DNA from: Candidatus Falkowbacteria bacterium RIFOXYD12_FULL_34_57
GTDB taxonomy: Bacteria; Patescibacteriota; Patescibacteriia; Patescibacteriales; UBA12075
Assembly (NCBI GenBank): GCA_001780285.1
Contig: MFGN01000022.1
Span: 1 to 32,709 of the forward strand
DNA: 32,709 nt
Direction: 5' to 3'
Shown here: one piece after another, positions 13,101-29,716 of the stretch
How positions within the stretch are numbered: the first letter of the stretch is position 1
Layout: each line of letters starts with the position of its first letter
The notes under the pieces: generated by a model
The model's input: the letters and a program-made list of their open reading frames with translations, nothing else
Told to the model about the DNA's origin: nothing
Database searches by the model: none
Made by a program: the position numbers and the translations under genes

Positions 13101-16100
13101 GGCATTTGGAATATCATTTTTAGAAAGCCAGTCAAAATTTACGGTATTTGATCCAGGAGAAGTAAGTATCCAGCCCGATGTGGTACCAACTTGATATATG
13201 GCGCCGTTATCAATATCGGGATCACCATAATCAGCTGTTATGTTTGCGTCCGTAGTGTCTAAGGTCGGATCACCTGATGGAACAAAAACACAGGAAGTAC
13301 CGGTAGCAAATTCAACTTTTGCCCGTAAGATGTCTTCATTGTCAATATCGTCAACCTCAATAGAAAAATCTACAACACCGCTACCATTTGTTTTTTGCGC
13401 TACAGAGTTTATTGCGCCAACCGGTGCATGTCCGCCGCTGTTTGTGGTAACTACTGTGGGCGCAGAACTAGCCTTATTTCCAGCTAAATCATAAGCCCAG
13501 ATAGAAAAACTATAAGTAGTGGAAGCGGTTAAATTGGTAATAGTGGTTGAAGATTGGCCGTTAAACAATATATCTCCTAAATTAGAGTCGCTTGATGTGC
13601 CCCACAAATTATCAGACTCGGTGATGTTGGTTGTGCTGCCTATTTTGTAATATATGCGATATTCCAAAAAATTAAATTCAGTAGTGGTCGCACCAAAATC
13701 AAATTTAACCTCTGTAATGGTTTTACTGTTTAATGTTAATTTTCCCGGTGCTGTAGGCAAAGCTAAATCTACTCGAAAATTAGGCGTACTCTGGTTAAAG
13801 ACAGCCCAAGAAGAACAAGCTCCTTCGTTATCACAAGCCATAACCTGCCATTTGTATCCAGGAGCATATTCTAAAATAGCGGTTATATTTATTTCTGTTA
13901 CCTCCTGTTCTTCTGCTTCAAAACTCAAAAAATCATTTACATTATTTTGATTGTTGTATTCAGTTTTAACCCAACCGGTACTACGAGCCGTCTCACTGTA
14001 TCTCACTTCATCTAATCTGCCCCTCCAGAGCTCTCCGTTCAATGAAGAAGCTCCAATATAAGTAGCAGTTGGCACAAGTAAGGTGTTGCTGTGCGTACCT
14101 GATCCAAAAACCGCACCATCAACATAAACAACTACATTGCTACCGGTACGAATATAATCAATTTTATGCCACGAACCAGCTCCTCCAATCAAGGTGCCGA
14201 AACTAGGATTATCTCCGCCATTGTCATAAACTTCTATAGCGGTATTGTTCATTGTCCATTGCGGATCATAATCCCCTGTCGCTGTAGTGTGGCTATAAAA
14301 ATTATCATAACCGGACGGATTTAGGTCATAATAAAACCAAGCGGACATAGAATAATTTCCCGGAGTGCCATATCCAGACGGAGAAGAGTTTACTAATTCA
14401 TCTCCTGTTCCGTCAAAATTAATAGCTTGTCCAATGCGGCCGGCGACCAAATCAGTGCTATTCATAGTGGCATCCGGAGTCATGTTATTACCATTCAGTG
14501 TAGAGTCGATTACTGTACCGGATGGATTATTATGCAAATGCCACACTCCCTTGTAATCCAAATCCCATACTCCGGTAGTAGTCGCATTATCCGTACTAGC
14601 GCCACTGTTTCCATAATACATATAAAGAGTTGTATTGGTGGTGGACGATATATTGGTTTTTATCCAAGCTACTAGTTCTCCGGTAGAAGAAGCAAAATAT
14701 TCTCTTTCATAATTCAATTTAGTAACACCATCAGACGCGGTAAACAAAATATCAAAACCATCTTCCCGAGCACTATTTTTGAGACCTAAATCTGTAGTTG
14801 TGGCAAGAACTGGAAAATTATCTTCATTAGATAAAATCTGGCCCGCATCAATTATTATCTTTTTTCGATATAACCAATTAGAACTATACCAAGCAGGAGA
14901 GGTGGCTGCCTTTGTCCATATCTTGCTATCGCAAGAATTATAAGCAACGCCGTCTCCACAAGCATCGCTTGGCACGGTAGTTGCTGTGCGCAAAGAAGCG
15001 CTGGTGGAAGCTAGTTCTAAATAAAAAGATACATTATTACCCGTATCAATATCGGTAGTAGAGGCCGTAAACATCAAATCTCCATTATCCACCCAACCAC
15101 CATTCACAATAGTGGTTATGCCGTCATTTTTATACTGATTCATTCCCCCGGGTATATTGGGTTGACTATTTGTTCTAAAACTAACTTCTGTAGCTTGCGC
15201 TTTATTGCCGGCCGAATCATAAGCATAAATATTAAAAACATAATCGGTTGCAGTAGCAAGACCAGTAATGGTGGTGGTAGAATATCCATTAAATAAAATA
15301 TTTCCTAAATGAAAATCTTCTACCTGTGTCCAAGCGCTATCTGATTCTGTTACTCCGGATATTCCTTTTTTATAATATATCTTATATTCTAAAAAATTAG
15401 TTTCGGTGGTTGTAGCGCCGAATATCAAAGTAATACTATTATTATGATTATGATCAAAATTTAAACTTCCTGGATCAGTTGGATTATCTGAATCCACCCC
15501 CGGTCTATTGGCAATATCAGATGCAGTATAAGCATTTGAATCATTTCCGGATGCATCAAGTAAAGTAATATTAACCGGCAAATCAGAGGAATCGTCGATA
15601 TTCGCATGACTCTCTCCAACTGTATAAGTTACTGTATAGTTATTTCCGGCAGCCGCAAGCAGGGTACCGGATACATCCACGCCATTAATAGTTATGGTGC
15701 CGGCAGTATATCCTGTTCCGTCAGAAAAAATAGTAGCGGTAGCTATATCTCCAATACCCAAAAGTCCGGAACTTATATTAAATGTTACATTAGAAATTAT
15801 CGGCCTAGAAGCATCTACTCCGGGACGATTTAAAATATCGGCGGTATTGAATATAGAGGATTCGTTACCGGCATCATCTTTAATATTAAAAGCAACAGGC
15901 AAATCATCTGAATCTAATCTATTGGTATCTCCTTCGATTACAGTATAAGTAACTGTATACTGGCCCCCACCAATCTCATTAAAGGTGCCGCTAACATCGG
16001 TGCCGTTTATAGTCATGATACTGCCTGCATTCAATCCTGCTTCTGCTTCCAGGGAAGTAAGTGTCGCTGTAGCCGTATCACCGATTTTTAAAACCCCGGA

Positions 16101-19100
16101 AGAGGGAAAGAAAGATACAATAGAAACTGCCGGAGTATGCGCATCCACCCCTGGCCTGCCGGCAATATCCGGTGTAGTAGATGCCATGCTTTCGTTTCCC
16201 GCAGAATCCCTAAATGAAATATTAATAGGCAAATCTGCTGAATCCAACCTATCAATATCTCCCTCGGTAACAGTATAAGAAACTGTATATTGGCCCAAGC
16301 CAATCTCACTAAAAGTGCTAGATATATCTATATTGTTAATCGTCATAGTAGTACCGGTGGAAAGCGAAGTTTCGAAATTGATGGCGGTAATAGTGGCGGT
16401 AGCCGTATCCCCCACCTTCAAAACACCGGAACTAGGATTAAAAGTAATAGTAGCGATCCCGGGGGTGTTGCCATCAACCCCTGGCCGACCATCAGAATCC
16501 GCTGTATTATAAATACTTGACTCATTGCCGGCATCATCTTTTACAGTAAAAATAATCGGCAAATCATTACTATCTAAAACATCGTTATCTTCTTCAAAAA
16601 CAGTATAACTAACTGTGTATTGTCCGAAACCAATATCAAAAAAAGTTCCCGACACTGTTACACCGTTTATGGTCATAATATCCCCGGCATTAAGTCCTTC
16701 CTCGTTATCTGCCACTGTAATTGTCGCTGTTGCCGTATCTCCAACCTTCAATACCCCTGATACCGGAAAAAATGCAACACTGGCAATAGATGGGGTATGG
16801 GCATCCACTCCCGGCCTGCCACTAGGATCAGTGGTTGTATAATTTACAGATTCATTACCAGCATCATCCTTTATTATAAAATCTACGGGTAGGTCATTAC
16901 TATCAAGTATATCCGTATGCCCCTCAATCACAGTATAGACAACCGTATACTGCCCGGAGCCAATATCGTCAAAAGTACCTGTCACATCCACACCATTAAT
17001 TGTCATCGTATTTCCAGCATTAAGTCCGGATTCACTGTCAGCTACTGTAATCGTAGCTGTTGCCGTGTCTCCTACCTTCAAGACCCCCGAACTGATAGAA
17101 AATGTCACATCCGTAATTATTGGGGTATTCGCATCTACCCCCGGCCTATTTGTCGGGTCAGAAATTAAATAAGCATTTGATTCATTACCGGCCGCATCTT
17201 TAATCCTGAAATTAACTGGCAAATCATCTCCATCGGGATGATCCGTCTCTCCTTCTCCGATTATATAAACAACTCTATAATTTCCACTGCCCACCTCAAA
17301 AAAAGTATTAATAACATCCACATTATTAATTTTCATAATAGTTCCGGATGTACAGCCCAACTCTCCGCCTACAACAGAAATAGTGGCGGTTGCCCTGTCT
17401 CCCACCTTCAAAACTCCAGAACTCGGAACAAATGATACACCGGATATAATCGGAGAATTAGCGTCAATTGATGCTGTATTAGTTTGCACGGAAGTTGAGG
17501 CCGGAGAGTTATATTGTCCCGCTTCATCCTCAAGCGTTAAGACAACCGGAATATTCCCTGCTGCCTGGTCCTGGTCTCCTTCTTGTACGGTATAATCAAA
17601 AGTATAAGTAGAATTATCTATTTTTTGCAGATTGCCGGTAGAGCTGGTCGCCCAGTTGATAGAACTGGTGCTTACAGATAAAGTATAATCATCCAAATCA
17701 GCCAAAACAGTCGTAGTGGCCCGCACCACATCCCCAACCTTATAAACCCTGTTAGGCAAACTTATTGTTAAAATTTTAGGCTTATTGGCATCAATTGTTA
17801 TGCTTCCGCTCGGACTAGTAAATGCCGGGCTGTTTACATTGCCATGATTATCTCGCAACACTACACTAATCGGTGTTTCTCCGATTTCTCTGTCAATATC
17901 CCCTTCAGCGACAACATAAGTAACATTATAAGTGCTGTCAGCATTATCAATAAAATTAATAATCGACTTACCGTTGATAGTGATCGCGCTTTCATGATAT
18001 CCGCTCAAATCAGCATCAATAATTACGGAAATATTGCTGCCGATTTTATAATCACCATTAGAAAGATATACTGCCTGAATTATCGGAGAATGCGCATCAA
18101 TAGAACCGTTTGTAAAACTTCCGGTATAGGCGGAATTAATATTTCCGTATCCATCCTTAAGGGCTATTGAATAAGGAATTGTGCCGGTAGCGCGATCTGT
18201 ATTTCCCTCTATTACTAAATAATCCACAGTATAAGTAGTATCACCAATCTTTTGTAAATTAGTAACAGTAACATTGTTTATAGTGCTCGGATCCAAACTA
18301 AAAACACTGATATCGCTGGTTACGGTAATGGTGGCTATTATAAGATCCCCCGCCTTAAACATAGAGTTTGAAACGGACATATTTGTAATATTCGGCGCGT
18401 TAGCATCGATTGATCCGTTGGCAAAATTTCCACTGGAGGTCGCACTTTTATTCCCATACAAATCAACTAAGGCAATGCTGTAGGGAATATCACCAAGAGA
18501 ACGATCAGTTTGACCGGCGGCAATAACATAATCAACAGTAAAAGTAGTATTATTTATTTTTTGAATATTTATTACTTGTCCACCATTAATCATAGACCCC
18601 GGACCAATGCTTAGATTACCAGATTCACTAACGACGGTAGTAGTAGCACGCAAAGTATCACCGATTTTATACATTTTATTACTGGTAACAATTGATGATA
18701 TCACAGGAATGGTGTTATCTATTGTGGTTGTAGCCACGGTTGAACTAGCTTGATCCACTCTAAGATCATTGGCTGTTAAACGCAAACAATATGTTTCTCC
18801 GTTGGCCGCCGGCAGATCGGTTTTTGAAAACCAATCAAAGTTAACCGTGTTACTTCCGGAACTGGTAATAATATAAGCTGTACTTGTACCTACTTGATAA
18901 GGATGATTATTATCAATATCCGGATCACCAGTGTCGGCGGTAATATTCGCATCGGTTGCATCAAGTGTCGCATCATGAGCAAAAAAAACAGAACAATCCG
19001 TTGAAGTCGCCCACTCCACTTTTACTCGAGTCGGTTCCCAGTCGGCATCAGCTACCTCCATGGAAATATCCACCACTCCGGAACCATTATTTCGTTCTAA

Positions 19101-21716
19101 CGCGGAATTAAAAGAAGATGTTGGTGGAGTTTTAAGCTCCATTGAAAAAATCACCAAATTATGAATATCAACAACGGGCGCCGGCGAAATGTCCACGGTT
19201 TCTCTCATTTCCGCGACAATTGAACGGCTGCCGGCCGACAAAGAACCAAGATAAAAATTATGATGCGCATTTTCATCAAGAGCTCCATGCGGCAAATCTC
19301 TTTTTACACTAGGAAATCCGGTCGGTACCACAGATCCATCGACCATAATCCTGCTTTCTATTACCTTGGCATTATCGCCGGTATCTGCCACCTCCTGCGA
19401 CCAAATAAGATGATCACCCGTTGCTTTTACCGAAAAAGGGGTGGAGGTTGACTGATACCAGGTATTTTGCGTCGTTAAAGAAATATTTTCAGTTGAATAT
19501 CCGATATAATGACTTTGAAATTTATCAAGATTTATGGCAAAAATAGCCGAATCCGTCCAATCGTGCGTTGATGCCACATCAACCGACGCATCAACCCTCC
19601 AGGTTTTTGTGCCGGAAATATTGGCGCCGCTCATTAGAACGAACGACCGCTCATCAACTGCGTCCTCTGTTTCATAGCGTATGGCGTTATATTCAACCCC
19701 ATCGGTCGCGTTATATAGGCGCATTCTTAAATCGGCTGAAGTGCTGTCTGAAAGATAGTGCCCCAAGCCCAAAATCATCCAATCGTTTCCCCCGCCGGCA
19801 ATAGACACGCTGGCACCGTTTGTGGTCCATGAGGTCAATAAATTTCCGCTGTTTGACGCGGTTGAATAATACCAGTCCGTATTTTCAACTAAATCATCTG
19901 ATAAATTTATCACAAAAGCCTGATAAGCGCTAATATAATATGTTACAGCGGAAGCGTTGGTAACCTGAACTTCTATAGCTTCCCCGGAAACAGCCGTCCA
20001 TACAGTAAAAAATCTATAACCATGACCGGTGTTCGCCGCTCCCGTGTTGGATGTTTCCCAGCGATGAAGCGATCCCGCAAATTCCGTGGATCCGTGCAGA
20101 ACGCGAGCCATGGCATTGGCATTGGCGCTGGAATTATTCAAACTGAAATTTATGGATATTAAATATTTTTTTCCGGCCGTAAAATTGGTAGATGATATTT
20201 GATAGCTGGAAATAGTATCCCAAACCCCGCCCCCCGGAGCTCCGGAATACGCATTATTGTCATACTTATAATAATGCCCGATGGTGCTCACGGCATCAGA
20301 GGCGATCTGCCATTGACGATTTTCAATATCAACACTTTTTCCGTCTGCAACCACAGACAAGGGGCCAAGCAAATAAAATTCAGGGGAAATATCAGGCGCA
20401 TCAAAAGTATAAGTTGCTATTAGTTCCTCTCCTGATTTTAAACTAATATCTTCCCAAATCAACTTATTTTCTATATCTCCCTCCTGAATTAAGAATTTAG
20501 AATTATGAATTAAGACTTCATTATCATTATTCTTAATTCTTAATTCTTGATTCACTATTCTAAACCCTTTCGGTACGATTTCGGTTAAAGACCCTTTATA
20601 ATCTTCATTAGCTTTGACCCGTAACACCATACCATAATCTGCCTTCGGAAAAATACGCGTCGGTCCTTCCCGCTTCACAATAAACGACAAACTATTCTTA
20701 ACCTCAATTTTATCGGATATTATTCTTTGTCCATCAGCCGTTTCGGCAATAATCGTAATATTATACTCTCCGATTTTCTTTAAATCAAAATGCGCAAAAT
20801 AATCAGGCTCATCAATTACATTATTAAGTCCGCAAGCATTATTTTTCGCAATACTATCATCTGCTGTTGAAAGGATCGTCTTGCCCCAACCCGGTTCATC
20901 GATCTCAATTCTAACATCCGCACCACAAACAGTATCTCCTTCATCATCCAAAACCGCCACTTGTAAATAAGCGCTGCTTCCCGGTAAATACAAAGATTGG
21001 TCGGAATTAAAAGCAAGCACCCCCCAAGTAAAATCTTGGTTAAAATCAACTACATCTCCCAATGTAATCTCCTGATCAGATATTTTAACTTTGAGGGAAT
21101 ATTTTCCAATCTTCAATTGGCGCCCTTTATTTTTAACATTAACCGTAAATTTTCCGTCTTTATCATAAATAACCTCAGATTCAATATTATTTATTTTTTT
21201 TCCATCAATGTCTACAACAAAAGATTCTATTTTAATATTTTTATATTCATCCGTAAACCAAGATCTAAAAAATGATCCCACATTACCGAATACCCCCTTA
21301 TTTTTTTTAAATCTAAATTCCAATTGCGGTTTTTCGGCAAATGAAAAATCCTTGCGGCCCGATTCCAAATTCAAATTAAAATCTTTTTTATTGATTTTGG
21401 AAACTGTTTCGCGCCCGCTGCGTAGAGACGCTTGTGTTTGCGTCTCTACATTGGGCGACATATATGAATCAGACGAATATGAAATACTATTGTCATTCTG
21501 AGTGTTAGCGAAGAATCCCGCCTGCCCGCCGAATTGGAGGGTTGTTGACGCCCTACCATTATCTACAAGATTCTTCGCTTCGCTCAGAATGACATTTGTG
21601 TTGTTTATATTTTGCGCATTCACTAAAGACCCAAAAAAAGAAAACAACAAAAAACCAACTGACAAGATCAGAATTTTTTTATTAATATTAAACATTTTAT
21701 TTAAATTTAAACCCAT
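7191..21716 (-). CDS. Giant modular surface protein, 4841 aa
   Basis: This is a predicted adhesin-like exported protein. Residues 1-35 are a signal peptide (…SLVNA). Residues ~40-115 are partly encoded by palindromic repeats. Residues ~180-475 resemble macroglobulin-type MG domains (WGVLAFNSDQSLYL, REGPTRI, ending WQIASDAVS) and are shared with the 2291-aa protein. Residues ~480-870 are beta-rich. Ten Ig-like repeats (VLKVGDTATATITV) span ~1000-2075. Seven FN3 domains and five Asp-rich modules (DPTLDETDANITADYGDPDI) follow, with two DUF2341-LamG pairs (WLYRKKIIID, WIYRKEIILK) at ~2275-2600 and ~3100-3430. The last ~170 residues are the module shared with the 350- and 368-aa proteins, ending QEAGDYATEIVYILVPTFY. 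Met8 (21695) is an alternative start that gives a more usual signal peptide. No catalytic domain is seen. It is probably co-expressed with the 2291-aa gene. Confidence 0.92.
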   Translation of the reverse strand: MGLNLNKMFNINKKILILSVGFLLFSFFGSLVNAQNINNTNVILSEAKNLVDNGRASTTLQFGGQAGFFANTQNDNSISYSSDSYMSPNVETQTQASLRSGRETVSKINKKDFNLNLESGRKDFSFAEKPQLEFRFKKNKGVFGNVGSFFRSWFTDEYKNIKIESFVVDIDGKKINNIESEVIYDKDGKFTVNVKNKGRQLKIGKYSLKVKISDQEITLGDVVDFNQDFTWGVLAFNSDQSLYLPGSSAYLQVAVLDDEGDTVCGADVRIEIDEPGWGKTILSTADDSIAKNNACGLNNVIDEPDYFAHFDLKKIGEYNITIIAETADGQRIISDKIEVKNSLSFIVKREGPTRIFPKADYGMVLRVKANEDYKGSLTEIVPKGFRIVNQELRIKNNDNEVLIHNSKFLIQEGDIENKLIWEDISLKSGEELIATYTFDAPDISPEFYLLGPLSVVADGKSVDIENRQWQIASDAVSTIGHYYKYDNNAYSGAPGGGVWDTISSYQISSTNFTAGKKYLISINFSLNNSSANANAMARVLHGSTEFAGSLHRWETSNTGAANTGHGYRFFTVWTAVSGEAIEVQVTNASAVTYYISAYQAFVINLSDDLVENTDWYYSTASNSGNLLTSWTTNGASVSIAGGGNDWMILGLGHYLSDSTSADLRMRLYNATDGVEYNAIRYETEDAVDERSFVLMSGANISGTKTWRVDASVDVASTHDWTDSAIFAINLDKFQSHYIGYSTENISLTTQNTWYQSTSTPFSVKATGDHLIWSQEVADTGDNAKVIESRIMVDGSVVPTGFPSVKRDLPHGALDENAHHNFYLGSLSAGSRSIVAEMRETVDISPAPVVDIHNLVIFSMELKTPPTSSFNSALERNNGSGVVDISMEVADADWEPTRVKVEWATSTDCSVFFAHDATLDATDANITADTGDPDIDNNHPYQVGTSTAYIITSSGSNTVNFDWFSKTDLPAANGETYCLRLTANDLRVDQASSTVATTTIDNTIPVISSIVTSNKMYKIGDTLRATTTVVSESGNLSIGPGSMINGGQVINIQKINNTTFTVDYVIAAGQTDRSLGDIPYSIALVDLYGNKSATSSGNFANGSIDANAPNITNMSVSNSMFKAGDLIIATITVTSDISVFSLDPSTINNVTVTNLQKIGDTTYTVDYLVIEGNTDRATGTIPYSIALKDGYGNINSAYTGSFTNGSIDAHSPIIQAVYLSNGDYKIGSNISVIIDADLSGYHESAITINGKSIINFIDNADSTYNVTYVVAEGDIDREIGETPISVVLRDNHGNVNSPAFTSPSGSITIDANKPKILTISLPNRVYKVGDVVRATTTVLADLDDYTLSVSTSSINWATSSTGNLQKIDNSTYTFDYTVQEGDQDQAAGNIPVVLTLEDEAGQYNSPASTSVQTNTASIDANSPIISGVSFVPSSGVLKVGDRATATISVVGGELGCTSGTIMKINNVDVINTFFEVGSGNYRVVYIIGEGETDHPDGDDLPVNFRIKDAAGNESNAYLISDPTNRPGVDANTPIITDVTFSISSGVLKVGDTATATITVADSESGLNAGNTMTINGVDVTGTFDDIGSGQYTVVYTVIEGHTDILDSNDLPVDFIIKDDAGNESVNYTTTDPSGRPGVDAHTPSIASVAFFPVSGVLKVGDTATATITVADNEEGLNAGDIMTINGVTVSGTFFDIGFGQYTVSYTVFEEDNDVLDSNDLPIIFTVKDDAGNESSIYNTADSDGRPGVDGNTPGIATITFNPSSGVLKVGDTATATITAINFETSLSTGTTMTINNIDISSTFSEIGLGQYTVSYTVTEGDIDRLDSADLPINISFRDSAGNESMASTTPDIAGRPGVDAHTPAVSIVSFFPSSGVLKIGDTATATLTSLEAEAGLNAGSIMTINGTDVSGTFNEIGGGQYTVTYTVIEGDTNRLDSDDLPVAFNIKDDAGNESSIFNTADILNRPGVDASRPIISNVTFNISSGLLGIGDIATATIFSDGTGYTAGTITINGVDVSGTLLAAAGNNYTVTYTVGESHANIDDSSDLPVNITLLDASGNDSNAYTASDIANRPGVDSDNPTDPGSLNFDHNHNNSITLIFGATTTETNFLEYKIYYKKGISGVTESDSAWTQVEDFHLGNILFNGYSTTTITGLATATDYVFNIYAYDSAGNKAQATEVSFRTNSQPNIPGGMNQYKNDGITTIVNGGWVDNGDLMFTASTTDIDTGNNVSFYLELASTSASLRTATTVPSDACGDGVAYNSCDSKIWTKAATSPAWYSSNWLYRKKIIIDAGQILSNEDNFPVLATTTDLGLKNSAREDGFDILFTASDGVTKLNYEREYFASSTGELVAWIKTNISSTTNTTLYMYYGNSGASTDNATTTGVWDLDYKGVWHLHNNPSGTVIDSTLNGNNMTPDATMNSTDLVAGRIGQAINFDGTGDELVNSSPSGYGTPGNYSMSAWFYYDLNPSGYDNFYSHTTATGDYDPQWTMNNTAIEVYDNGGDNPSFGTLIGGAGSWHKIDYIRTGSNVVVYVDGAVFGSGTHSNTLLVPTATYIGASSLNGELWRGRLDEVRYSETARSTGWVKTEYNNQNNVNDFLSFEAEEQEVTEINITAILEYAPGYKWQVMACDNEGACSSWAVFNQSTPNFRVDLALPTAPGKLTLNSKTITEVKFDFGATTTEFNFLEYRIYYKIGSTTNITESDNLWGTSSDSNLGDILFNGQSSTTITNLTASTTYSFSIWAYDLAGNKASSAPTVVTTNSGGHAPVGAINSVAQKTNGSGVVDFSIEVDDIDNEDILRAKVEFATGTSCVFVPSGDPTLDTTDANITADYGDPDIDNGAIYQVGTTSGWILTSPGSNTVNFDWLSKNDIPNANGDYCVRITVNDGDKDQEDLATTTITIDNINPANPGNLSVISQATDSVILQFSDQSSDTNFSHYEIHYKLGDSGVTTADTNHVDTNLESVNYGGKSTTTITGLQSGVTYVFKIWAFDDYGNSASSTAEVTATTNYTPDNPINLSQKKTDGSVIANGGLIDDNDVQFRATSTDVNFGETMTFYYEILPNDGTFTVASSVPGSFCYESTAYASCSNNIWAASTTVSGVPSGWYNSDWIYRKEIILKASEIVSNEIDFPVLINSVISDLVGKARSDGYDILFTSSDGITELNYERESWNSSTGALVAWVQTDISSTTDTTLYMYYGNGDASIDNATTTGVWDTDYKGVWHLNNDPTGIVTDSTVNGNNMVSGGSMLSTDLTTGQIGQGIRFDGSNDSLQDTSPNGYGTPGNYTMSTWFYYSVNPSGWDNFYSHTVGGTNYDPQWAMNNTDIRIYDSGGDQPNFGAYTTGSGDWHKIDYIRTGSNVAVYIDGIYFGSGTHSNALSVPTTIFIGNSTVAGGEPWNGVLDEVRYSEINRSTGWIKTEFNNQNSPSTFMTLESEEIYKYYYSSGLTVSNITDLGMGYKWQAMACDDDNACSSWQQFDADIPNFEVDTEAPQIPGDMTAVSQTANSITLDFGDQTVDNNFREYRIYYQISDGGATEVSEADMLFGSSTDSNLKYINYNGAATTTVFGLQNGTEYEFNIWAYDIFGRKASATTPVFASTNYAPQGNFIAVQQKRNGSGIVDITIEADDLNSDNLRAKIEFATGTTCVFSPSGDPTLDETDANATSTYGDAEIENDNEYQIGNAGGWIITDTATNTVYFDWFSKIDIPNANGTYCLRLTVNDGVDDQLVSATTTLIIDNTSPTAPGPLSFYSRTSNSLTLFFGATTTETNFVYYKIYYKAGVDTVNEGDTSHTDPNLNNILFNGKSTTTINGLSGNTQYSFKVYVYDAYGNKNNSIQKTFSTNAYPTGVFNSVAQKIDGSGIVDISIEVYDLNGDNASAKLEFATGTTCIFSPSGDPTLDETDSNITADHGDPGIDNDNEYQVGTSTAMITTSGGSNTVNFDWFSKIDVPIADGDYCLRLTVNDGISNQFISATTTITLDNINPIAPGSLTDEEVTGLTVKLNFNGVGSDTNFSEYKIFYKKGTSGVTESDTPFTKLDDVNLGAEDFNTKSSTTISSLSQNTDYVFNIWIYDDFGNKASAASEVSTTTLIVPSATWREEEDTVDPTISTHIGRNAPLRVRISIVNTGDWLAEDYRYRLEYGLKSGTCNAVSSWTPVPATSTGEHFEMVESIYFIDGEPTTARFINSEGYIFVPGYMLQKQTAITASTTLYKNQYTELEYTIQATASSTAGATYCFRVTDNGTVLDNYSQYPELSLAPLPTGTFVSAQQKKDASAIIDISIEVSDINGDLSRARIDYVVGTSCDFTIPLDPTLDETDANITAVYGDPDIHNGSLYQIGTGTNKIITQYGANTINFDWPTLNNLSDADDIYCLRLTANDWLDDQSVPATTTVIIDQVRPTDIGNLTLVDKTSNSITLGLGTSTIDTNFRDYRIYWKEGTSGVTESDNLWGTSSDASLRYADFNGATTTIVTGLTVNKQYVFRIWAYDDFGHKASSSEELQAMISYVSVSENWRWYYDYSTSTPLYPMADEDATPSDVVSGAVVKLRFAMREIEDITGLDLKMRLQYSTFSDFSSDVHFVGEIGSTSVLWTYGNGIDTDDDRIEDVLLSGVSLGATHNESGVSTSTFDHLAGSLAEWEFTIRNNNADIGTTYYFRAYDNTNGAVVSKNVSFTYPSIIPQSGNLSYTMTGFGIGSSTEGVVTNIVTTPSSVPFGVLTEGEDVIGAHRLNISTNAGHGYQLFVYEKQKLIANNGADIDPVTSPNENPASWPISPSPSAFGYHSGDDTLSGAFSSRFAPDDSYAKFETDMKEISYSEIPVINETVDLVYRVEIDRMQEAGDYATEIVYILVPTFY
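11430..12410 (-). repeat. Second DUF2341-LamG copy inside the giant gene
   Basis: This part encodes WYNSDWIYRKEIILK, then NATTTGVWDTDYKGVWHL, then the concanavalin-like jelly roll (YGTPGNYTMSTWFYY, DWHKIDYIRTGSNVAVYI, LDEVRYSEINRSTGWIKTE). By eye it is about two-thirds identical in protein to the copy at 13915-14900. The copies lie ~2.5 kb apart with FN3 and Asp-rich modules between, so a long unit was duplicated. Confidence 0.8.
13915..14900 (-). repeat. First DUF2341-LamG copy inside the giant gene
   Basis: This part encodes WYSSNWLYRKKIIID, LYMYYGN, VWDLDYKGVWHLHN, YGTPGNYSMSAWFYY, SWHKIDYIRTGSNVVVYV and LDEVRYSETARSTGWVKTE. DUF2341 followed by LamG is a usual pairing in large surface proteins and suggests glycan or ligand binding. 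Confidence 0.8.
15490..17480 (-). repeat. Tandem Ig-like repeats, ~330-bp period
   Basis: Six long-type repeats of about 110 aa each carry SSGVLKVGDTATATITV, MTINGVDVSGTF, GQYTVSYTV, DSNDLPV and DAGNES followed by GRPGVDA. The DNA for GVLKVGDTATAT recurs near 15738, 16073, 16405, 16733, 17062 and 17392, a steady 328-335 bp period. Four shorter relatives (YKVGDTVRATTTV-like) continue from ~17480 to ~18710. The fold resembles Ig-like stalk domains of adhesins. Confidence 0.85.
21422..21449. repeat. Palindromic repeat GTAGAGACGC/GCGTCTCTAC in coding frame
   Basis: GTAGAGACGC (21422-21431) pairs with GCGTCTCTAC (21440-21449) around 8 nt. The same family occurs at 27622-27670 and 28135-28162. Here it is read in frame as part of NVETQTQASLRSG near residue 95 of the giant protein. 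I know this family as a dispersed spacer repeat in other bacterial genomes. Confidence 0.85.
21492..21593. repeat. 102-bp palindromic repeat in coding frame
   Basis: Imperfect inverted arms (21492-21517 and 21569-21593, with GTCATTCTGAG and GATTCTTCGC at their ends) surround a GC-rich core, GCCCGCCGAATTGGAGG, at 21524-21540. It is 34 codons long and is read as VILSEAKNL…STLQFGG…FF in the giant protein. It is a relative of the element at 27734-27838. Confidence 0.85.
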
Positions 21717-22063: not shown

Positions 22064-25000
22064 TTACTCCCCTCCATCATTATTCCTCCATCTATAGTGT
22101 ATCTGCTTCACAAACGGAAAAGTTACCTGATAAAAATCTGCATAACTATCATTATCTATAATTCCTATATCATTACCGCTTGAAAGCTCGGCCGAATACT
22201 CCACACTAGTAGACGCAAAATTTTTGTTAAATATTATTTTAAAATCCAAAATACAGGTATTTACCGCGCAGCTTGATGTACTATTTCCTGATAAAGTTGC
22301 AACATTCAAAATATCATTACCGCTCTCATAAAACTCATCAGTAGTCTGATTCCAATAAAATTTCAAATCGTCGTACGGCGAAGCATTATCACTCTTATCT
22401 GCAAGCCTTAAGGTTGTGGATGAAATTGCATACCAACCGTTAGTCTCTGTAACCACTGCCCTAAAATTATATTCCGTCCCCGATCCCGCCATTACTATAT
22501 TATCAGCAGAACTTGTAGCAAAGGCGTTAGTGAATGTTAACGATACATTAGAGATGGTAGCATTGGTTTTTATGGCAACTTCTGTGGCACTAGCTTTATT
22601 GCCGTAAACATCATAAGTCCAAATATTAAAAACATACCAGGTATTTTGGGTAAGCCCCGTAACCAAGGTAGAAGTAGCGCTATTGTAGTCATAAGCATTC
22701 AAATTCGTATTATCCACCTCTGTCATTCCCACACCGCCCTCAGTTACCCCCGATATACCCTGTTTATAAAATATCTTATACGCATCAACTGCCGGCTCAT
22801 TTGTATCCTGTCCAGGAGTAGTAGTCGCATAAAGAATGGTAATACTATTAGTGGTCACCTTTCCCTGTAAAAGAGAACCGGTCGATGTCGGCGCCGTATT
22901 ATCAAGGGTTAAAGTAGTAGTAGCCAAAATAAGCTGATTATCAAATCTATCATTTACGGTCAAGCGCAGACAATAGGTACCATCTGCTTCCGGCTCATCC
23001 GTTTTACTAAACCAATCTGCCTCAATGGTATTTTCTCCGGGAGAAGTAAGTATCCAAGCGCCGGAAGTACCAATTTGATATTCCCAATTATTATTAAGAT
23101 CCGGATCGCCAAAATCAGCTGTCACATTAGCATCAGTTTCATCAAGCGTCGGATCCAGGGGGGTGGTAAAATTACAATTTGAAGATGTCGCATACTCAAT
23201 CTTTGCTTTCAGCGTATCATGATTATTGGCATCATCCGCATCAAAAGATATATCCACGATTCCCGACCCATTCTGTCTCTGTTTGGTGGTCGCTTTATTA
23301 AAAATACCGGTCGGCGCATCATTGGTGGTAATATTTACAAAACTAGAACTAGCCTTATTGCCATACCAATCATAAACCCAGATCGCAATGCTATAAGTAG
23401 TGCTCGCCACAAGCCCGGAAGTGATGGTAGTGGTAGCCTCATCATTAAATAAAATATCTCCTAAATTTTCATCAGTAGATGAAGCAAGTATACTATCTGT
23501 TTCACGGGGTGCTGTACCGTCCATTACCTTGTAATATATCTTATATTCTTTAAAATTAGTTTCCGTAGATGTAGCGCCAAAATTTAGTGTAAGAGATGTG
23601 CCGGTCCTGCTGTTCAAACTTAGAGGTTCCGGCGCAGTAGGATTGATATTATCAATATACACGGTAGTCGTAGCCGGAGTTGCTTGATCTGAAAATAAAT
23701 CATTGGCAATGAGCCTTAAACAATAATCACCCTCTACACTGCCCAAATCCGCTTTTGATTGCCAATCAAAAAATACTGTGTTTGATCCGGAAGCTGTCTG
23801 AATATAAGCATCTACCGTGCCGATCTGGTATTCGTTATCGTTTTCAATATACGGATCCCCATAATCAGCCGTAATATTACCATCAGCCTCATCCAGGGTC
23901 GGGTCTCCGGATGGAATAAACACACAAGAAGTACCGGTAGCAAATTCCAGTTTTGCTGTTACCTCATGTCCATCCAGATCATCCACCTCAATAGCAATAT
24001 CCACCACGCCTGTTCCATCTATTTTTTGTATAGCAGAGATAAGTGTGCTGGTTGGAGCTGTATTTTCCCAACCATAAGTATATGTTAATATGCCGTTCAT
24101 CTTAGCGCCGTCGGTTTGCGGAATGAGCGCGGTGTCATCACTAACATAACAGGTTGTATAGGATTGATTATCCGTAGCATCCAGAGCGCTGGTCACATCT
24201 TTGTATATTTCCGCTGAACTATTTATGGCATCCGGCTGCGCCCAGTAATCCGGTGAACAAACCGGAACCCCCGTAGAGATATTTGCATCAAGTCCGAAAT
24301 AACCACCAGCAGCCACATCACCGGCACTGTCACTGTTCAAAAAATATGCCCATATTCCTCCGGCATAAACTGTTTTTCCGGCATTCTCCGGAAATACAGA
24401 ATAAATTGTGGAAAATGTTGTGCTCGTAGCAGGCGCCTCTGATGATTGGCCGGCAAAAATATTAAGGCTTGTAAGATATCCTTCTGAGTTATCATTGTCA
24501 TAAACATAGGTAATCATCAGTTCAGCAGAAATTCCGCCAAAAGTAACACTGCTTTGCGTAATATTTAATCGTACTGTTTTAGGACTTGCGGAATTAGCAC
24601 CCTGAAGCTCGGCATAATCAGTAGACGGGATAATGTGAACTATATTATAAGTGGGCCGCGGCACCGTACCGCCGCCGTTATAATTATAAACATAGCTGCT
24701 TGATGTCGCATTTGCACCAACCTTGCTGGAAACAGTGGTAGTCCATGCGCCATTGTTGTAGTGGTGATCAATGATTCTGAACCAAGCTTTTTTTATCCGC
24801 ACCTTGCCGCTTCCCGATCCATTTTCCGGAAAATAAACATCCACATCTTTAAACGTCAATGCGGTAGTATTTCCATTATTTATAACACCCAAAGGAAAAC
24901 TAACCGTCTTAGTGCTGGTGGCGGCAGAGCTGGACGCAATATAAGTTTCGTAAACCTCTCCGCCTACAGCATAATTCGTACCAGTATTAATATAAAACTC

Positions 25001-28000
25001 CAATTGCTGTGTAATATTTTCCGCATAACCGGAATTTGCCCACTCCGGGAAAAAGAAATATTGCATATTGCCCTGCGTGCCGCCATTCGCGCATTCAAAA
25101 TGAAATGTCTCACTATCTACATCATATCCCTGGATGTTTACATTCGGATCCAAATCAACCGCATTATTACCGTCATTGCCGTCAAACATCTTAAACCAGC
25201 TATCCAGGCGATAAGTAGATGTAGCATATGACGGAAATTCCGGAATTTCCATATGATAATCATAAATAGGACAAGTGCTGTTTCTAGTGCAACCACTGAC
25301 ACTGTTTTGCATAGTACCGCTATCATCCGGAGTAGGAGCTGTATCTGTTGAAGCCAAAGGATAAACAACAGTATTGGTTACATTAGAGGAATCAGCATCA
25401 TAGGTATAGGTAATATACAGAACAGCTCGAGCGCTTGCTATAGATGTTTTAGTAGTGCCATTTTTTATATTATACCCAAACTGCGCCTCAAGCTCAGTAT
25501 TACCGCCGGTATAACTAGCTAAATCAGTCTCGTTTGTTACATCAAGAAGCAGGCGCAAATGATTACTCTCAAGTTCGTCATAAGCCAGGATATTACTATT
25601 ATCATCCAAAACCTGTCCATTACCCGTGCCAAAAGCACTGCAAAATTCATCACACGCATCAAAACCGAGCTTATATCCTGTATAGTTTCCACCGGTAGAG
25701 TTATATGCCTCTATTTGGGTTTCAAGAAATACAAAAGCGTTTTTTATCTCTACTCCGGTTTCAGCCAAACGAAAATTAAAACTATTAAATACATTATTGT
25801 CATTAGTGTTTTGTCCCGCTGTAGCCCCGCCGTTGTAAGTGCCGGCCATAAACATCACCGTGCGCGCTCTTTTGCTAACCGCGTCCGAGGCTATCTGCCA
25901 ATTTCTATATTCTGTAAAATTAATTTTTTTCTCACCAATAATAAAATCTTTTATGGTTTCCATGATTCCACTTGAACTGGCACTAGTTTCTACTTTTGAG
26001 ATTCCCGAAAAGTGCGCCGGACCAAGCAAGTAAAATTCAGGTGAATTATCCGGAGCATCAAAAGTATATTGAATCTCTATTTCATCTCCCTCTAAAAACT
26101 CTACATCTCTCCAAAACAACTTCTTCTGACCGTCAATCAGCACTTCCTCAAATTCATAATTCGACCCAAAAGGATCTCTTTCGTTATTATTTATAATTTT
26201 TAATTCGTAATTTTTAATTTTAAATCCGTCAGGAACCGATTCTACAAAATCACCCTTAAAATTCGTATTAGCTAAAATATTTAAAGTCATACTATAATCT
26301 GATTTAGGGTTGATTCTGGTCGGCCCCACACGCTCTACTTCTAAATCTAATTTTTTCTTAACAATTAAATTTTCCATTATAATTTTTGCTCCTGCTGAAG
26401 TGCTGGCAGTCAAAGTAATCTCATATTCCCCGGCCGCATCTAAATTGTAATACGCAAAATAATCAGGGGTACTAATCACATTATCTTTAGCGCATGCCGG
26501 ATTACTGGTAATCAAATTGTTAAAAGAAGAAAGGGTAATAGTGTCACCATTAGGATTATTAATTTTTAAACTCAAACTTGCATCACAAACAGTGTGCCCA
26601 TTGTCATCCAAAACTGCCATTTGAATATAGGCTTTCTCGTCCTGCAAATAAACAGACTTATTAAAATTCATAGCCAGTACACCCCAGCTGAAACTCTGTT
26701 TAAGCTCCAAAACCTCCTCTTCGTCGCCGGAACTGTCTGTAATTATAAATTTAATAGTATACTTGCCCGGCTTTAACTCTTTCATCTCCGGCAGGCGAAT
26801 TTCAAACTCGCCGTCTTCTTCAAAAATAAAAGTTAAAAGCTCTCCCACTTCTCTTCCGCTACTATCAACAAGGCGGGCTTCAATATTTATATCTTTCCAA
26901 AAATTAGACACCCCAATAATCTCACCCAAGGTGTCCCAAATCCTATTTTCATTTTTGTTGTATCTAAATCGAAGCACACCCTCTTCCCCAACTTGAAAAA
27001 CAAGCTTTTCCGACAAAAGATCCAAAGCCTCTTCCCATCTTTGACGCTTGTCTATTTTTTCTATATCACTTCCCGGTTCATATTCAGCTTCTACCCACAC
27101 GCTATCCAAAAAAGCTGTAAAAATACTTTCCTCATCCACCAGGCCTTCAAATTTAATTTTCAATCCTTCAACTTTCTCCCAGGAATCAAGAAACGGAGCA
27201 TCATAATCAAAATATCCTCCGTTAATTACATTTGACAAAGTATTAAGCGACAGCTCATCCAGCTTTTCCCAAACACGATCATTCGTGCCGCTAGCAGAAT
27301 CAACCGAATACCAAACAATGATTTTAGCATCCATGGTAACGGGGCCATTTCCTTCTTGGGCTTGCGCATCCCTGACCTTTATTAATTTATTTATCAAGCT
27401 CATCCTATCTGATCCGTCCGCATCACTCGGTCCACTAACCTCAACTTCGACATCTTGCTCTTCTGCTTCAATAACTTCCACGTTAGAATCAATAATCACT
27501 TCATCATTTTTCGGTTCATCCCCATTTCTGTTAATTTCTATAATATTCAATTCTTCACCGGCTACCTCCACTACATTTTCTTCACCAATCCCAAAAACAG
27601 TATCCTCAATCTGCCCATCACGTAGAGACTCGCCATGCCTGCCCGCCGAATTGGAGGGGCGAGTCTCTACATTGGATGAAATATATGAATCAGACGAAGA
27701 TGAAATTTGTTCACTATAATTTTTATCCCCTATGTCACCCTGAACGCCAGTGAAGGATTCCGCCCGCCCGCCGAATTGGAGGGTTGATGATGCATTATCG
27801 GTAATTTCACGAGATTCTTCACTATCACTCGGAATGACGTTGGAAAATGTACTTGATTTTTGATTATTATCACCACTTTCAACAGGTTTGACGAAGTCAA
27901 ACCCGCTTTCCATCGCAAAAGAAAACTTAATTTTAGCACTTTTAAATTCACCCAAATCTTCCAAGGTATTAATATCGGGAGAAAGTATCTCCTGCGCTGT

Positions 28001-28939
28001 CGCTATCATTTTCAGAATAGGATTATAAGCGTTGATAAAATTTTTAACTTTATCCATAAAAGATGTCTTTTCGTCAATAATTTCAACCTCCATATCGTCA
28101 TTCGGCTCTACTAAATCATTATTCGGTTCTTCATGTAGAGACGCATTGCCATGCGTCTCTACAGTATCAGTATTCTGATCTTCGTTTTCTGATGAACCTG
28201 TAGAAATATCATTACTTTTTATCTTTTCAATCAATTCTCGTATATCGATTTCTTCCTCTAATAATAATGTGGAAGTAGAAATATTAATATCATTTATACT
28301 GCCGATATCAAGATCTCCCACATCATCAGTAGAACTCTCTAATTTCCAATTTTCAATTTCCAATTTCCCAATATCTACATTCTCCAATTCTTTCTCAATC
28401 TCCTCCTGAGTTAAATCCGTATCTTCGTACATATCCGCACCACCCTCCGGCGCTTCCCATTCTTCATCACTCTGGATACCCGCCTCTTTCTCTACAAAAG
28501 ATTCCTTAGAAGAAGATAAAAACATAAAATCCGACAAAACTAAACTAAAATTTCCGCCAGAATAAACAGCGCTGGTCTCCTCTGAAAAAGAAAACATAGT
28601 AGCATGCTCTGATACTTCCGCTTCCCCCAGCGCCCGTTCCTGATTCCACCACCCCTTGTTGGCATTTATATTATTATCTACAACCCCGGAAGAGGCGTAG
28701 AGATTAATAGTTCTACTTCTTCCCACCAAAGCGCTAATCGTTCCATTAAATAAATCAATTGGAGAATATCCGGTAAAAATATACAAAACAAAAATAAAAC
28801 CAAAAAACAAAGAAAAAACTTTTTTATAACCAAAAATAAATCCCGCTTTTTTTGGCGCAACAAACTTGGCAAAAAAATGCGGGATTTTTTTAAAATATTT
28901 TTGGTTGTTTCCTATTCGGTTGTCTTGCGAGTTACGCAT
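22064..28939 (-). CDS. Large modular surface protein, 2291 aa, possibly C-terminally truncated
   Basis: This is a predicted membrane-anchored or exported adhesin-like protein. A long basic n-region precedes a hydrophobic segment at ~41-57. Residues ~120-560 are acidic and low in complexity and include repeat-encoded pieces. Residues ~600-1016 hold the MG-like region shared with the 4841-aa protein (WGVLAMNFNKSVYL, VERVGPTRI, WQIASDAVS). Residues ~1016-1640 are two related beta-rich modules. Two Asp-rich modules (DPTLDEADGNITADYG, DPTLDETDANVTADFG) alternate with two FN3 domains to ~2127. The protein ends FPFVKQIHYRWRNNDGGE. From family memory, HYRWRNDDGSE normally opens a further domain, so the end looks cut. 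The shared QEAGDY C-terminal module is missing. It starts 68 bp after the membrane HTH gene and lacks a ribosome site. It lies upstream of the 4841-aa gene on the same strand. Confidence 0.9.
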   Translation of the reverse strand: MRNSQDNRIGNNQKYFKKIPHFFAKFVAPKKAGFIFGYKKVFSLFFGFIFVLYIFTGYSPIDLFNGTISALVGRSRTINLYASSGVVDNNINANKGWWNQERALGEAEVSEHATMFSFSEETSAVYSGGNFSLVLSDFMFLSSSKESFVEKEAGIQSDEEWEAPEGGADMYEDTDLTQEEIEKELENVDIGKLEIENWKLESSTDDVGDLDIGSINDINISTSTLLLEEEIDIRELIEKIKSNDISTGSSENEDQNTDTVETHGNASLHEEPNNDLVEPNDDMEVEIIDEKTSFMDKVKNFINAYNPILKMIATAQEILSPDINTLEDLGEFKSAKIKFSFAMESGFDFVKPVESGDNNQKSSTFSNVIPSDSEESREITDNASSTLQFGGRAESFTGVQGDIGDKNYSEQISSSSDSYISSNVETRPSNSAGRHGESLRDGQIEDTVFGIGEENVVEVAGEELNIIEINRNGDEPKNDEVIIDSNVEVIEAEEQDVEVEVSGPSDADGSDRMSLINKLIKVRDAQAQEGNGPVTMDAKIIVWYSVDSASGTNDRVWEKLDELSLNTLSNVINGGYFDYDAPFLDSWEKVEGLKIKFEGLVDEESIFTAFLDSVWVEAEYEPGSDIEKIDKRQRWEEALDLLSEKLVFQVGEEGVLRFRYNKNENRIWDTLGEIIGVSNFWKDINIEARLVDSSGREVGELLTFIFEEDGEFEIRLPEMKELKPGKYTIKFIITDSSGDEEEVLELKQSFSWGVLAMNFNKSVYLQDEKAYIQMAVLDDNGHTVCDASLSLKINNPNGDTITLSSFNNLITSNPACAKDNVISTPDYFAYYNLDAAGEYEITLTASTSAGAKIIMENLIVKKKLDLEVERVGPTRINPKSDYSMTLNILANTNFKGDFVESVPDGFKIKNYELKIINNNERDPFGSNYEFEEVLIDGQKKLFWRDVEFLEGDEIEIQYTFDAPDNSPEFYLLGPAHFSGISKVETSASSSGIMETIKDFIIGEKKINFTEYRNWQIASDAVSKRARTVMFMAGTYNGGATAGQNTNDNNVFNSFNFRLAETGVEIKNAFVFLETQIEAYNSTGGNYTGYKLGFDACDEFCSAFGTGNGQVLDDNSNILAYDELESNHLRLLLDVTNETDLASYTGGNTELEAQFGYNIKNGTTKTSIASARAVLYITYTYDADSSNVTNTVVYPLASTDTAPTPDDSGTMQNSVSGCTRNSTCPIYDYHMEIPEFPSYATSTYRLDSWFKMFDGNDGNNAVDLDPNVNIQGYDVDSETFHFECANGGTQGNMQYFFFPEWANSGYAENITQQLEFYINTGTNYAVGGEVYETYIASSSAATSTKTVSFPLGVINNGNTTALTFKDVDVYFPENGSGSGKVRIKKAWFRIIDHHYNNGAWTTTVSSKVGANATSSSYVYNYNGGGTVPRPTYNIVHIIPSTDYAELQGANSASPKTVRLNITQSSVTFGGISAELMITYVYDNDNSEGYLTSLNIFAGQSSEAPATSTTFSTIYSVFPENAGKTVYAGGIWAYFLNSDSAGDVAAGGYFGLDANISTGVPVCSPDYWAQPDAINSSAEIYKDVTSALDATDNQSYTTCYVSDDTALIPQTDGAKMNGILTYTYGWENTAPTSTLISAIQKIDGTGVVDIAIEVDDLDGHEVTAKLEFATGTSCVFIPSGDPTLDEADGNITADYGDPYIENDNEYQIGTVDAYIQTASGSNTVFFDWQSKADLGSVEGDYCLRLIANDLFSDQATPATTTVYIDNINPTAPEPLSLNSRTGTSLTLNFGATSTETNFKEYKIYYKVMDGTAPRETDSILASSTDENLGDILFNDEATTTITSGLVASTTYSIAIWVYDWYGNKASSSFVNITTNDAPTGIFNKATTKQRQNGSGIVDISFDADDANNHDTLKAKIEYATSSNCNFTTPLDPTLDETDANVTADFGDPDLNNNWEYQIGTSGAWILTSPGENTIEADWFSKTDEPEADGTYCLRLTVNDRFDNQLILATTTLTLDNTAPTSTGSLLQGKVTTNSITILYATTTPGQDTNEPAVDAYKIFYKQGISGVTEGGVGMTEVDNTNLNAYDYNSATSTLVTGLTQNTWYVFNIWTYDVYGNKASATEVAIKTNATISNVSLTFTNAFATSSADNIVMAGSGTEYNFRAVVTETNGWYAISSTTLRLADKSDNASPYDDLKFYWNQTTDEFYESGNDILNVATLSGNSTSSCAVNTCILDFKIIFNKNFASTSVEYSAELSSGNDIGIIDNDSYADFYQVTFPFVKQIHYRWRNNDGGE
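27622..27670. repeat. Nested palindromic repeat in coding frame
   Basis: GTAGAGACTCGCC (27622-27634) pairs with 27658-27670. The loop contains the core GCCCGCCGAATTGGAGG (27641-27657) found in the other repeat family. Here the core is read in a different frame (PSNSAGRHG) from the LQFGG reading in the other two genic copies. Confidence 0.85.
27734..27838. repeat. 105-bp palindromic repeat in coding frame
   Basis: The arms are GTCACCCTGAACGCCAGTG… and …CACTATCACTCGGAATGAC, with the core GCCCGCCGAATTGGAGG at 27766-27782. It is 35 codons long and is read as VIPSDSEESREI…STLQFGGRAESF in the 2291-aa protein. It is homologous to 21492-21593 and, like that element, is followed by a GTAGAGAC-family palindrome. 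Confidence 0.85.
28135..28162. repeat. Third GTAGAGACGC palindrome in coding frame
   Basis: GTAGAGACGCAT (28135-28146) pairs with ATGCGTCTCTAC (28151-28162) around TGCC. It is read in frame as VETHGNASLHE in the acidic region of the 2291-aa protein. Confidence 0.85.
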
Positions 28940-29007: not shown

Positions 29008-29436
29008 TTAGTAAGTGATTGTATTTTTATTTTGTTCTATAATTTTTGTTTTTGTTTGCACAATATTTGAATTATCAAATATTAAATATAAAAAATAAAA
29101 ACTTAAAAGAAAAAAACTGATAATCACCACCAAGAGAATCGGCAAGGCGGTTTTAAAAGTCTTAAAAAACAACCTTATAATATCTAATTCCATAAAAACT
29201 TGTCTCTTTTTACTAAAAATTTTATCTTTTAAGCTAACTTTTTGATTATTACTCTTTCCTTTATTTTTATAGTCCAAAACAGCTTCTTTTGTAGTCATCC
29301 AAGCCACATTGCAATACACTTGTTTTCCAGGAATTTTACCTGATCGAATCAATTGGCCCACATAATCCGAAGAATATCCAGAAATCTCAGCCGCTTCCTT
29401 TAAAGATATTAAATTTTTGTCATTATTTAATTCCAT
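29008..29436 (-). CDS. Membrane-anchored HTH regulator (142 aa)
   Basis: This is a likely DNA-binding protein tethered to the membrane. Residues ~10-55 form an excisionase/HTH_17-type helix-turn-helix: ISLKEAAEISGYSSDYVGQL, then IRSGKIPGKQV and WMTTKEAVLDY. A basic linker (~58-80) leads to one hydrophobic segment at ~98-120 (PILLVVIISFFLLSFYFLYL) and a short outer tail. The HTH would face the cytoplasm. The start is well supported: AGAAGGA lies 5 nt upstream of the ATG. The gene is first in line with the 2291-aa gene (68 bp on) and then the 4841-aa gene, so it may regulate them. Three phased palindromes upstream are its likely target or its controller's target. No effector domain is visible. 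Confidence 0.87.
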   Translation of the reverse strand: MELNNDKNLISLKEAAEISGYSSDYVGQLIRSGKIPGKQVYCNVAWMTTKEAVLDYKNKGKSNNQKVSLKDKIFSKKRQVFMELDIIRLFFKTFKTALPILLVVIISFFLLSFYFLYLIFDNSNIVQTKTKIIEQNKNTITY

Positions 29437-29531
29437 TTTATCCTTCTGTTATCCTGGAAAGTATGTAGTAATAGCGGAATACTTATCCGGGATCCATTCC
29501 GTAAATTTCAGGAAATAGATATTTAATCGTA

Positions 29532-29559
29532 AATATACTAAAACTATTAATTTACCCAA
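29532..29559 (-). promoter_or_regulatory. Candidate downstream promoter of the HTH-giant protein unit
   Basis: On the minus strand TTGGGT (29554-29559) and TATATT (29532-29537) are 16 bp apart. If this is the active promoter, the three palindromes sit upstream of it, centred near -51, -94 and -136, as in an activator array. A better -10 lies farther upstream at 29687-29692. Confidence 0.3.
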
Positions 29560-29568
29560 TATTAGCTA

Positions 29569-29583
29569 TCTCGACCCTCGATA
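29569..29583. promoter_or_regulatory. Operator-like palindrome, site 1
   Basis: TCTCGA-CCC-TCGATA. It is the first of three copies of a TMTCGA-N3-TCGAKA pattern and is centred at 29576. I saw no fourth copy when reading the other spacers. Confidence 0.6.
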
Positions 29584-29611
29584 TATTAAATTTCCTTTAT
29601 TTTTTAATGTT

Positions 29612-29626
29612 TCTCGATAGTCGAGA
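29612..29626. promoter_or_regulatory. Operator-like palindrome, site 2 (perfect)
   Basis: TCTCGA-TAG-TCGAGA. The perfect arms extend to 9 bp (29609-29617 and 29621-29629). It is centred at 29619, 43 bp from site 1. Confidence 0.65.
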
Positions 29627-29653
29627 AACAACTTTTTATAGATTTTTACCAAA

Positions 29654-29668
29654 TATCGAGCCTCGAGA
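29654..29668. promoter_or_regulatory. Operator-like palindrome, site 3
   Basis: TATCGA-GCC-TCGAGA. It is centred at 29661, 42 bp from site 2, so all three sites lie on about the same face of the helix. Confidence 0.6.
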
Positions 29669-29686
29669 TTTTTAATTTATGATTTT

Positions 29687-29716
29687 ATTATACCACTTTA
29701 TATCATAAAAAATCAA
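29687..29716 (-). promoter_or_regulatory. Promoter of the membrane-anchored HTH gene
   Basis: On the minus strand a perfect TATAAT (29687-29692) with a TGG extension is preceded at 18 bp by TTGATT (29711-29716). Transcription would start near 29680, placing the three palindromes at about +13 to +112 in a ~240-nt leader. Between 29437 and 29987 I see no gene. Confidence 0.55.

Follow-up and report, generated by a model that had tools for sequence, protein, structure and literature searches.

Candidate operators of a membrane-anchored HTH protein in front of giant surface-protein genes of Patescibacteria

With a probability of roughly 0.7, three palindromes in the window (the whole stretch of 32,709 nucleotides of Candidatus Falkowbacteria DNA analysed here) serve as operators through which a membrane-anchored protein controls its own surface-protein operon, probably as a repressor. 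The presumed autoregulator, HTH-TM, is an HTH protein with one membrane helix. Comparison of sequences across genomes strongly supports the palindromes as the sites of this linked protein, and negative autoregulation, which the operator position would favour, is the most likely mode of control. We infer binding, dimerisation, repression over activation and any transmembrane signal alike; dimerisation is assumed from the palindrome, the structure model being that of a monomer.

Table 1. Positions of the features in the window
Feature	Position	Strand	Remarks
Giant protein 2 (4841 aa)	7191..21716	(-)	fn3, DUF2341 and laminin-G-like matches; 347 bp after giant protein 1
Giant surface protein 1 (2291 aa), proposed co-regulated product	22064..28939	(-)	N-terminal membrane anchor, large outer part
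HTH-TM gene (142 aa), proposed autoregulator	29008..29436	(-)	HTH_17 match, AlphaFold model, orthologues
Candidate operator 3	29569..29583	(-)	TATCGAGGGTCGAGA in gene orientation; exact motif
Candidate operator 2	29612..29626	(-)	Perfect palindrome TCTCGA-CTA-TCGAGA
Candidate operator 1, nearest the promoter	29654..29668	(-)	TCTCGAGGCTCGATA in gene orientation; exact motif; ~+12 to +26
Predicted promoter	29687..29716	(-)	TTGATT, 18 bp, TATAAT with extended TGG; consensus scan

Three palindromes behind a predicted promoter

On the forward strand, candidate operators 3, 2 and 1 read TCTCGACCCTCGATA, TCTCGATAGTCGAGA and TATCGAGCCTCGAGA, respectively, each an exact match to TMTCGA-N3-TCGAKA, and the arms of operator 2 extend to 10 bp (29608-29630). 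The preliminary description had located these three copies at exactly the positions found here, with centres 43 and 42 bp apart, between an extended -10 promoter and the HTH-TM gene (Table 1), and had seen no other copy in the spacers of the window. All of this holds, the last point for the whole genome: its 1,615,284 bases in 37 contigs contain just three exact matches, all at 29569-29668, so that the motif is not evenly scattered. The same pattern read backwards has no match in the whole 1.6-Mb genome. Two further one-mismatch matches were considered as second sites in this genome and discarded, both lying within coding frames. TCGA palindromes can arise by chance in coding DNA, but among 20,000 dinucleotide shuffles of 29437-29700 one exact site appeared in 13 and more than one in none; together with the phylogenetic recurrence presented below, the shuffles exclude chance or neutral repeats, whose probability is negligible.

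The extended -10 element TGGTATAAT (minus strand, 29695-29687) stands just upstream of operator 1, and the consensus scan predicts a transcription start near 29680. The palindromes would thus sit downstream of the start, in the leader, and this position favours repression. A similar geometry is found elsewhere: in 11 of the 24 distinct HTH-TM loci compared, plus one additional target in another genome (L130, see below), the first operator begins 25-29 bp after the TG of TGNTANAAT; its distance to the ATG ranges from 49 to 240 bp in those 11 loci. If transcription starts 7 bp past the -10 element, the first operator covers ~+12 to +26, and a dimer at this place would be in the way of promoter escape or early elongation. 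In the remaining loci, the nearest matching -10 is found 14, 19, 38, 44, 49 or ~140 bp upstream or is unrecognised; since it is much farther from the operator in L031, L034, L036 and G010 (49-141 bp upstream), the repression geometry is not universal. MerR activators bind between the -35 and -10 elements of promoters with a long spacer (19-20 bp). Such an activator position was rejected for the present operator: in about half of the loci, it starts 25-29 bp past the TG of the extended -10 element, and the predicted promoter spacer in the window is 18 bp.

The spacing of the sites had been read as placing a dimer on each of them on one face of the DNA. This is true in the window (43 and 42 bp), but strict four-turn phasing is unconserved: spacings elsewhere are 44, 34, 31 and 21-25 bp, so that the same face is shared only loosely between loci. 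The spacings cluster near two, three and four turns, shifted by ~2 bp (at 10.5 bp, R=0.71, a value matched or exceeded by 39 of 20,000 random sets in a post hoc test). Strict helical phasing was rejected as a rule, since the 34- and 24-bp spacings deviate by 85-100 degrees from the common face. Because the test was post hoc and many loci have one or two sites only, same-face binding is regarded as a plausible aid to cooperativity and not as a defining feature.

The sites could instead act as RNA, since they lie within the predicted leader: stem-loops might govern stability or attenuation, or form a protein-binding RNA element. A 10-bp hairpin is indeed possible at site 2, and in a predicted fold site 1 pairs with site 3. 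However, variants at positions 2/14 are mostly uncompensated (6/8 changed rows unpaired), and standard pairing across 22 site variants is 89.4%, compared with 87.3% in shuffles. Furthermore, many loci contain a single site, the loop is unconserved, the motif has no fixed strand, and no Rfam family reaches its gathering score. On account of the mostly uncompensated half-site changes and the lack of an Rfam match, hairpins were rejected as the main reading; they are very improbable.

Distribution of the sites and of the HTH-TM gene

Relatives were collected in two ways. A first search by the motif itself covered 59 related genomes, and in nine of the 12 other motif-positive genomes the motif lies directly upstream of an HTH-TM orthologue, which is followed by a giant protein. 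The set of relatives is therefore partly motif-found. A second search, through the 111 genomes of the order, used the HTH-TM protein alignment alone and avoids selection by the motif; the phylum search was likewise chosen by protein alone. In the order, the HTH-TM gene is present in 11 genomes, named relatives being Candidatus Falkowbacteria and other Parcubacteria. Ten of them carry the exact motif within 300 bp upstream of HTH-TM, and the eleventh (L028) has the one-mismatch copy TCTCGACCCCCGAGA at -51. Absence of the motif upstream of orthologous loci had been named in advance as the outcome that would speak against a linked operator; instead, the motif is present across the order and in other classes as well.

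The phylum sample consisted of 380 evenly drawn Patescibacteria genomes. All of the five best HTH matches in it (E<1e-20) have TCTCGAN3TCGAGA within ~200 bp upstream, and nearly all other inspected sites are intragenic. Exact sites are located 25-58 bp before the start codon in Paceibacter, Campbellbacteria and an unclassified Parcubacteria bacterium, where the next gene encodes a different large protein, and a member of Kaiserbacteria has a one-mismatch site upstream of HTH-TM. Taken over 24 distinct loci (25 entries minus L122, a duplicate of L036), the 300 bp upstream contain an exact site in 17 and a site with at most one mismatch in 21; the corresponding counts in 10,000 shuffled upstream regions are one and 23.

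The motif is associated with the regulator and not with the giant gene. When the N-terminal region of the giant protein was searched in the order, 16 genomes were positive; in the five of them that have no HTH-TM (G002, G007, G025, G040 and G048), the surroundings of the giant gene contain no site, even with one mismatch allowed. Giants without HTH-TM are thus also without the motif, which argues that the motif tracks the regulator. HTH paralogues of the type YxxDYIGQLIRxGKIKGQKVGRxWYV (L040, L042-L044) have no motif upstream. In genomes without a strong HTH-TM match, almost all sites fall inside open frames, i.e., they are background.

There are a few irregular cases. Among the sites whose genomes have no strong HTH-TM match, L022 in G005, L098 and L115 are intergenic and do not fall under this background. 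L022 (G005:C15:9601) is an exact site at the end of the preceding gene in a genome of the same family, 88% complete, in which the HTH-TM gene was not found; it may be a remnant or chance. The locus L034 is on a contig labelled Bacteroidia (BPGX01000014.1, KatS3mg027) and is nearly identical to the HTH-TM locus of Candidatus Paceibacter; this is probably a mis-binned Patescibacteria contig.

Altered operators, additional targets and fused genes

In two genomes (L038 and L039), the sites have the form TCTCGG-N3-CCGAGA or a near form of it, changed in both arms, and the HTH domain reads ANYxPDYVGQLIRAGKI...YSQ; the changed operator is unique in the L039 genome. The operator appears to have been altered together with the HTH sub-branch, which is suggestive, not proof, of their correspondence. 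This bears on the idea that a different, unlinked regulator reads the sites and controls the HTH-TM/giant operon. Such control is a common mode for operons, and yet it is quite improbable here: besides the joint change of operator and HTH branch, motif and HTH-TM co-occur across classes, giants lacking HTH-TM also lack the motif, and the fused forms described below retain the operator.

A further operator copy is found in the genome of L130 (G004), 9 kb away from the HTH-TM locus and before a gene of the giant family; its product is a 518-aa secreted protein that, by eye, resembles the middle part of the giant protein in the window. There, TGGTATAAT lies 29 bp before the operator, and the ATG 27 bp after it. 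Another genome with HTH-TM contains a second exact site (L123, G222:C13:15010), 141-155 bp before the gene of a 196-aa secreted protein and with better promoter-like sequence downstream of the site; this is a possible second target.

There are also fused genes. Two HTH domains, followed by the giant's own membrane anchor, form the beginning of the giant protein in G383 (4910 aa) and G457, and operators stand 34 bp (G383) and 31 bp (G457) before the ATG of the fused gene. G116 (L062) has one HTH joined to a related N-terminus, and only an imperfect site. These fusions would tie the DNA-binding heads functionally to the giant protein. In other Patescibacteria, distant HTH_17-like domains occur at the N-terminus, or close to it, in very long frames of ~850-4900 aa (L065, L067, L070, L073, L078 and L080), mostly before a membrane helix and without the TMTCGA operator; giant proteins headed by an HTH may be more widespread and use operators of other kinds. 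Judged on co-occurrence, motif-less giants without HTH-TM, fusions and the altered operator branch, autoregulation by HTH-TM, which the preliminary description had put forward, gains support from the compared genomes.

With the same protein-operator pair, HTH-TM might activate the operon, as ToxR, CadC and TcpP do, or mainly tether the gene to the membrane, in the latter case coupling synthesis and secretion of the giant protein. In favour of these variants, the best fold match of HTH-TM is RacA, a chromosome anchor, and G383 and G457 have the HTH in one polypeptide with the giant. Known transmembrane transcription regulators (TTRs) include virulence activators, e.g., TcpP (PMC10269533), and coupled transcription, translation and insertion have been proposed for a T3SS locus (PMC9977878). 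However, an operator downstream of the -10 element, as in most loci, is unusual for an activator, and the second target of L130, which shares the promoter geometry at a distance of 9 kb, speaks for transcriptional control. Both variants are considered unlikely, and repression by HTH-TM is preferred.

The regulator, its proposed action and known systems

HTH-TM is predicted to consist of a MerR/excisionase-like HTH (~residues 9-60), an amphipathic helix (69-93), one membrane helix and a short outer tail. It matches HTH_17 with E=2e-4, under the curated Pfam cut-off. The AlphaFold model has a pLDDT of 80-92 across residues 11-60 and contains the HTH, a wing, the helix 69-93 and then a long helix (97-138) including the membrane span, with no effector domain; residues ~98-120 are strongly hydrophobic, and this stretch is kept in orthologues. 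In MerR-family activators, an effector domain comes after the coiled-coil helix of dimerisation; in the HTH-TM model, the helix 69-93 is followed by the membrane helix. The nearest solved folds in Foldseek are RacA, the MerR family, phage Xis and BldC, none below E=0.04 and with sequence identities of 10-27%; sequence search yielded no solved homologue. An excisionase/attachment-site reading was set aside: no recombinase is present among the scanned window genes (DHH-family, radical-SAM, and giant or surface-like proteins), and TIGR01764 matches with E=0.004, below cut-off. In each of the 11 HTH-TM proteins of the order, the last residue is aromatic, in most cases within hydrophobic-[S/T/N]-[F/Y]-COOH (ITY, LNF, LSF, MTF, FSF and LTF; 29008-29020 in the window, and orthologues), the preceding tail being unconserved. 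Such an end is similar to the ligands of PDZ-domain proteases and might serve as an outer-side recognition tag.

As had been described, the HTH-TM gene precedes two giant genes, both downstream on the same strand. Giant protein 1 starts 68 bp past the HTH-TM gene and has weak fn3 and MG2 matches, and its N-terminus is conserved beside HTH-TM in relatives; giant protein 2 is possibly, not demonstrably, in the same operon. Within the first 35 codons of giant protein 1, before its membrane anchor, there is a 23-nt inverted repeat (28834-28891; 87% complementary, 12-nt loop, U-rich flanks), which may act as an attenuator; another possibility is a true start codon at a different position. The 892-aa protein encoded at 1764-4442 has five EPTP repeats and PKD domains, a surface-protein architecture adjoining the giants. 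Two flanking genes without assigned function (603-1655 and 4671-5777) weakly match NF058581, the C-terminal domain of the CPR Pam pilus pilin, with E=2e-9 and 2e-6, below cut-off.

In the proposed mechanism, dimers of the cytoplasmic MerR/excisionase-like HTH would read the TMTCGA half-sites of the three palindromes, the last of which lies ~130 bp upstream of the HTH-TM gene. A dimer on the first operator would hinder promoter escape or early elongation by RNA polymerase, and the extra operators would allow cooperative binding. In this way, HTH-TM would repress both its own gene and the giant gene that follows after 68 bp, i.e., negative autoregulation from the membrane. The most economical idea may be that the membrane anchor reports the amount of co-produced surface protein that has been inserted; in the HTH-giant fusions, this reporting would be automatic. 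Tentatively, and with clearly less confidence than the operator assignment, the locus can be seen as a self-counting surface switch, in which the giant comes with a membrane-bound repressor of its promoter, made together with it or, in some species, fused to it: each inserted molecule would add a DNA-binding head, shut the gene and perhaps hold it at the membrane. If true, a giant secreted surface protein would here be a transcription factor in its own right.

Little has been written on regulation in Patescibacteria. Indeed, the main text of a 2024 perspective on their unexplored biology does not contain “transcription factor,” “gene regulation” or “promoter” (PMC11665869), and nothing on this system was found in the papers searched on giant proteins of Patescibacteria, HTH-TM regulators and CPR operators. 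Here, comparison across classes links regulator, operator, promoter geometry and target, and suggests that the surface of Patescibacteria is controlled in a widespread way that has not been described so far. The targets are very large surface proteins, plausible tools for host-cell contact, and the natural HTH-giant fusion suggests that surface display may be coupled directly to transcription.

Among known systems, the RacA/MerR/Xis/BldC superfamily shares the predicted fold of the N-terminal 60 residues, and RacA and MerR proteins are dimers on inverted repeats; HTH-TM differs by its additional membrane helix and, from MerR activators, by an operator downstream of the -10 element instead of between -35 and -10. 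Negatively autoregulated operons with multiple phased operators are known from lambda OR and lac. Like them, the present locus has several near-identical palindromes at about whole-turn spacing near a promoter, whereas its regulator is membrane-anchored, its target is a giant surface protein, and its sites differ between species in number and spacing.

Of the classes described, the TTRs, such as ToxR, CadC and TcpP (Demey et al., 2023; PMC10269533), come closest, and Patescibacteria are unnamed in the main text of that survey. HTH-TM has two of the features by which TTRs are recognised, a predicted DNA-binding domain and at least one transmembrane region in one polypeptide; the third, regulation of transcription from the membrane, is suggested by the conserved arrangement of operator and promoter. 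It shares with TTRs a cytoplasmic DNA-binding domain and a single membrane helix and would, like them, act on a nearby operon. In contrast to the winged helix that forms the DNA-binding domain of ToxR and CadC, its domain is MerR/excisionase-like; its outer tail is very short and without a sensor domain, its operator lies downstream of the -10 element, suggesting repression, and in two genomes the HTH is fused to the target giant surface protein.
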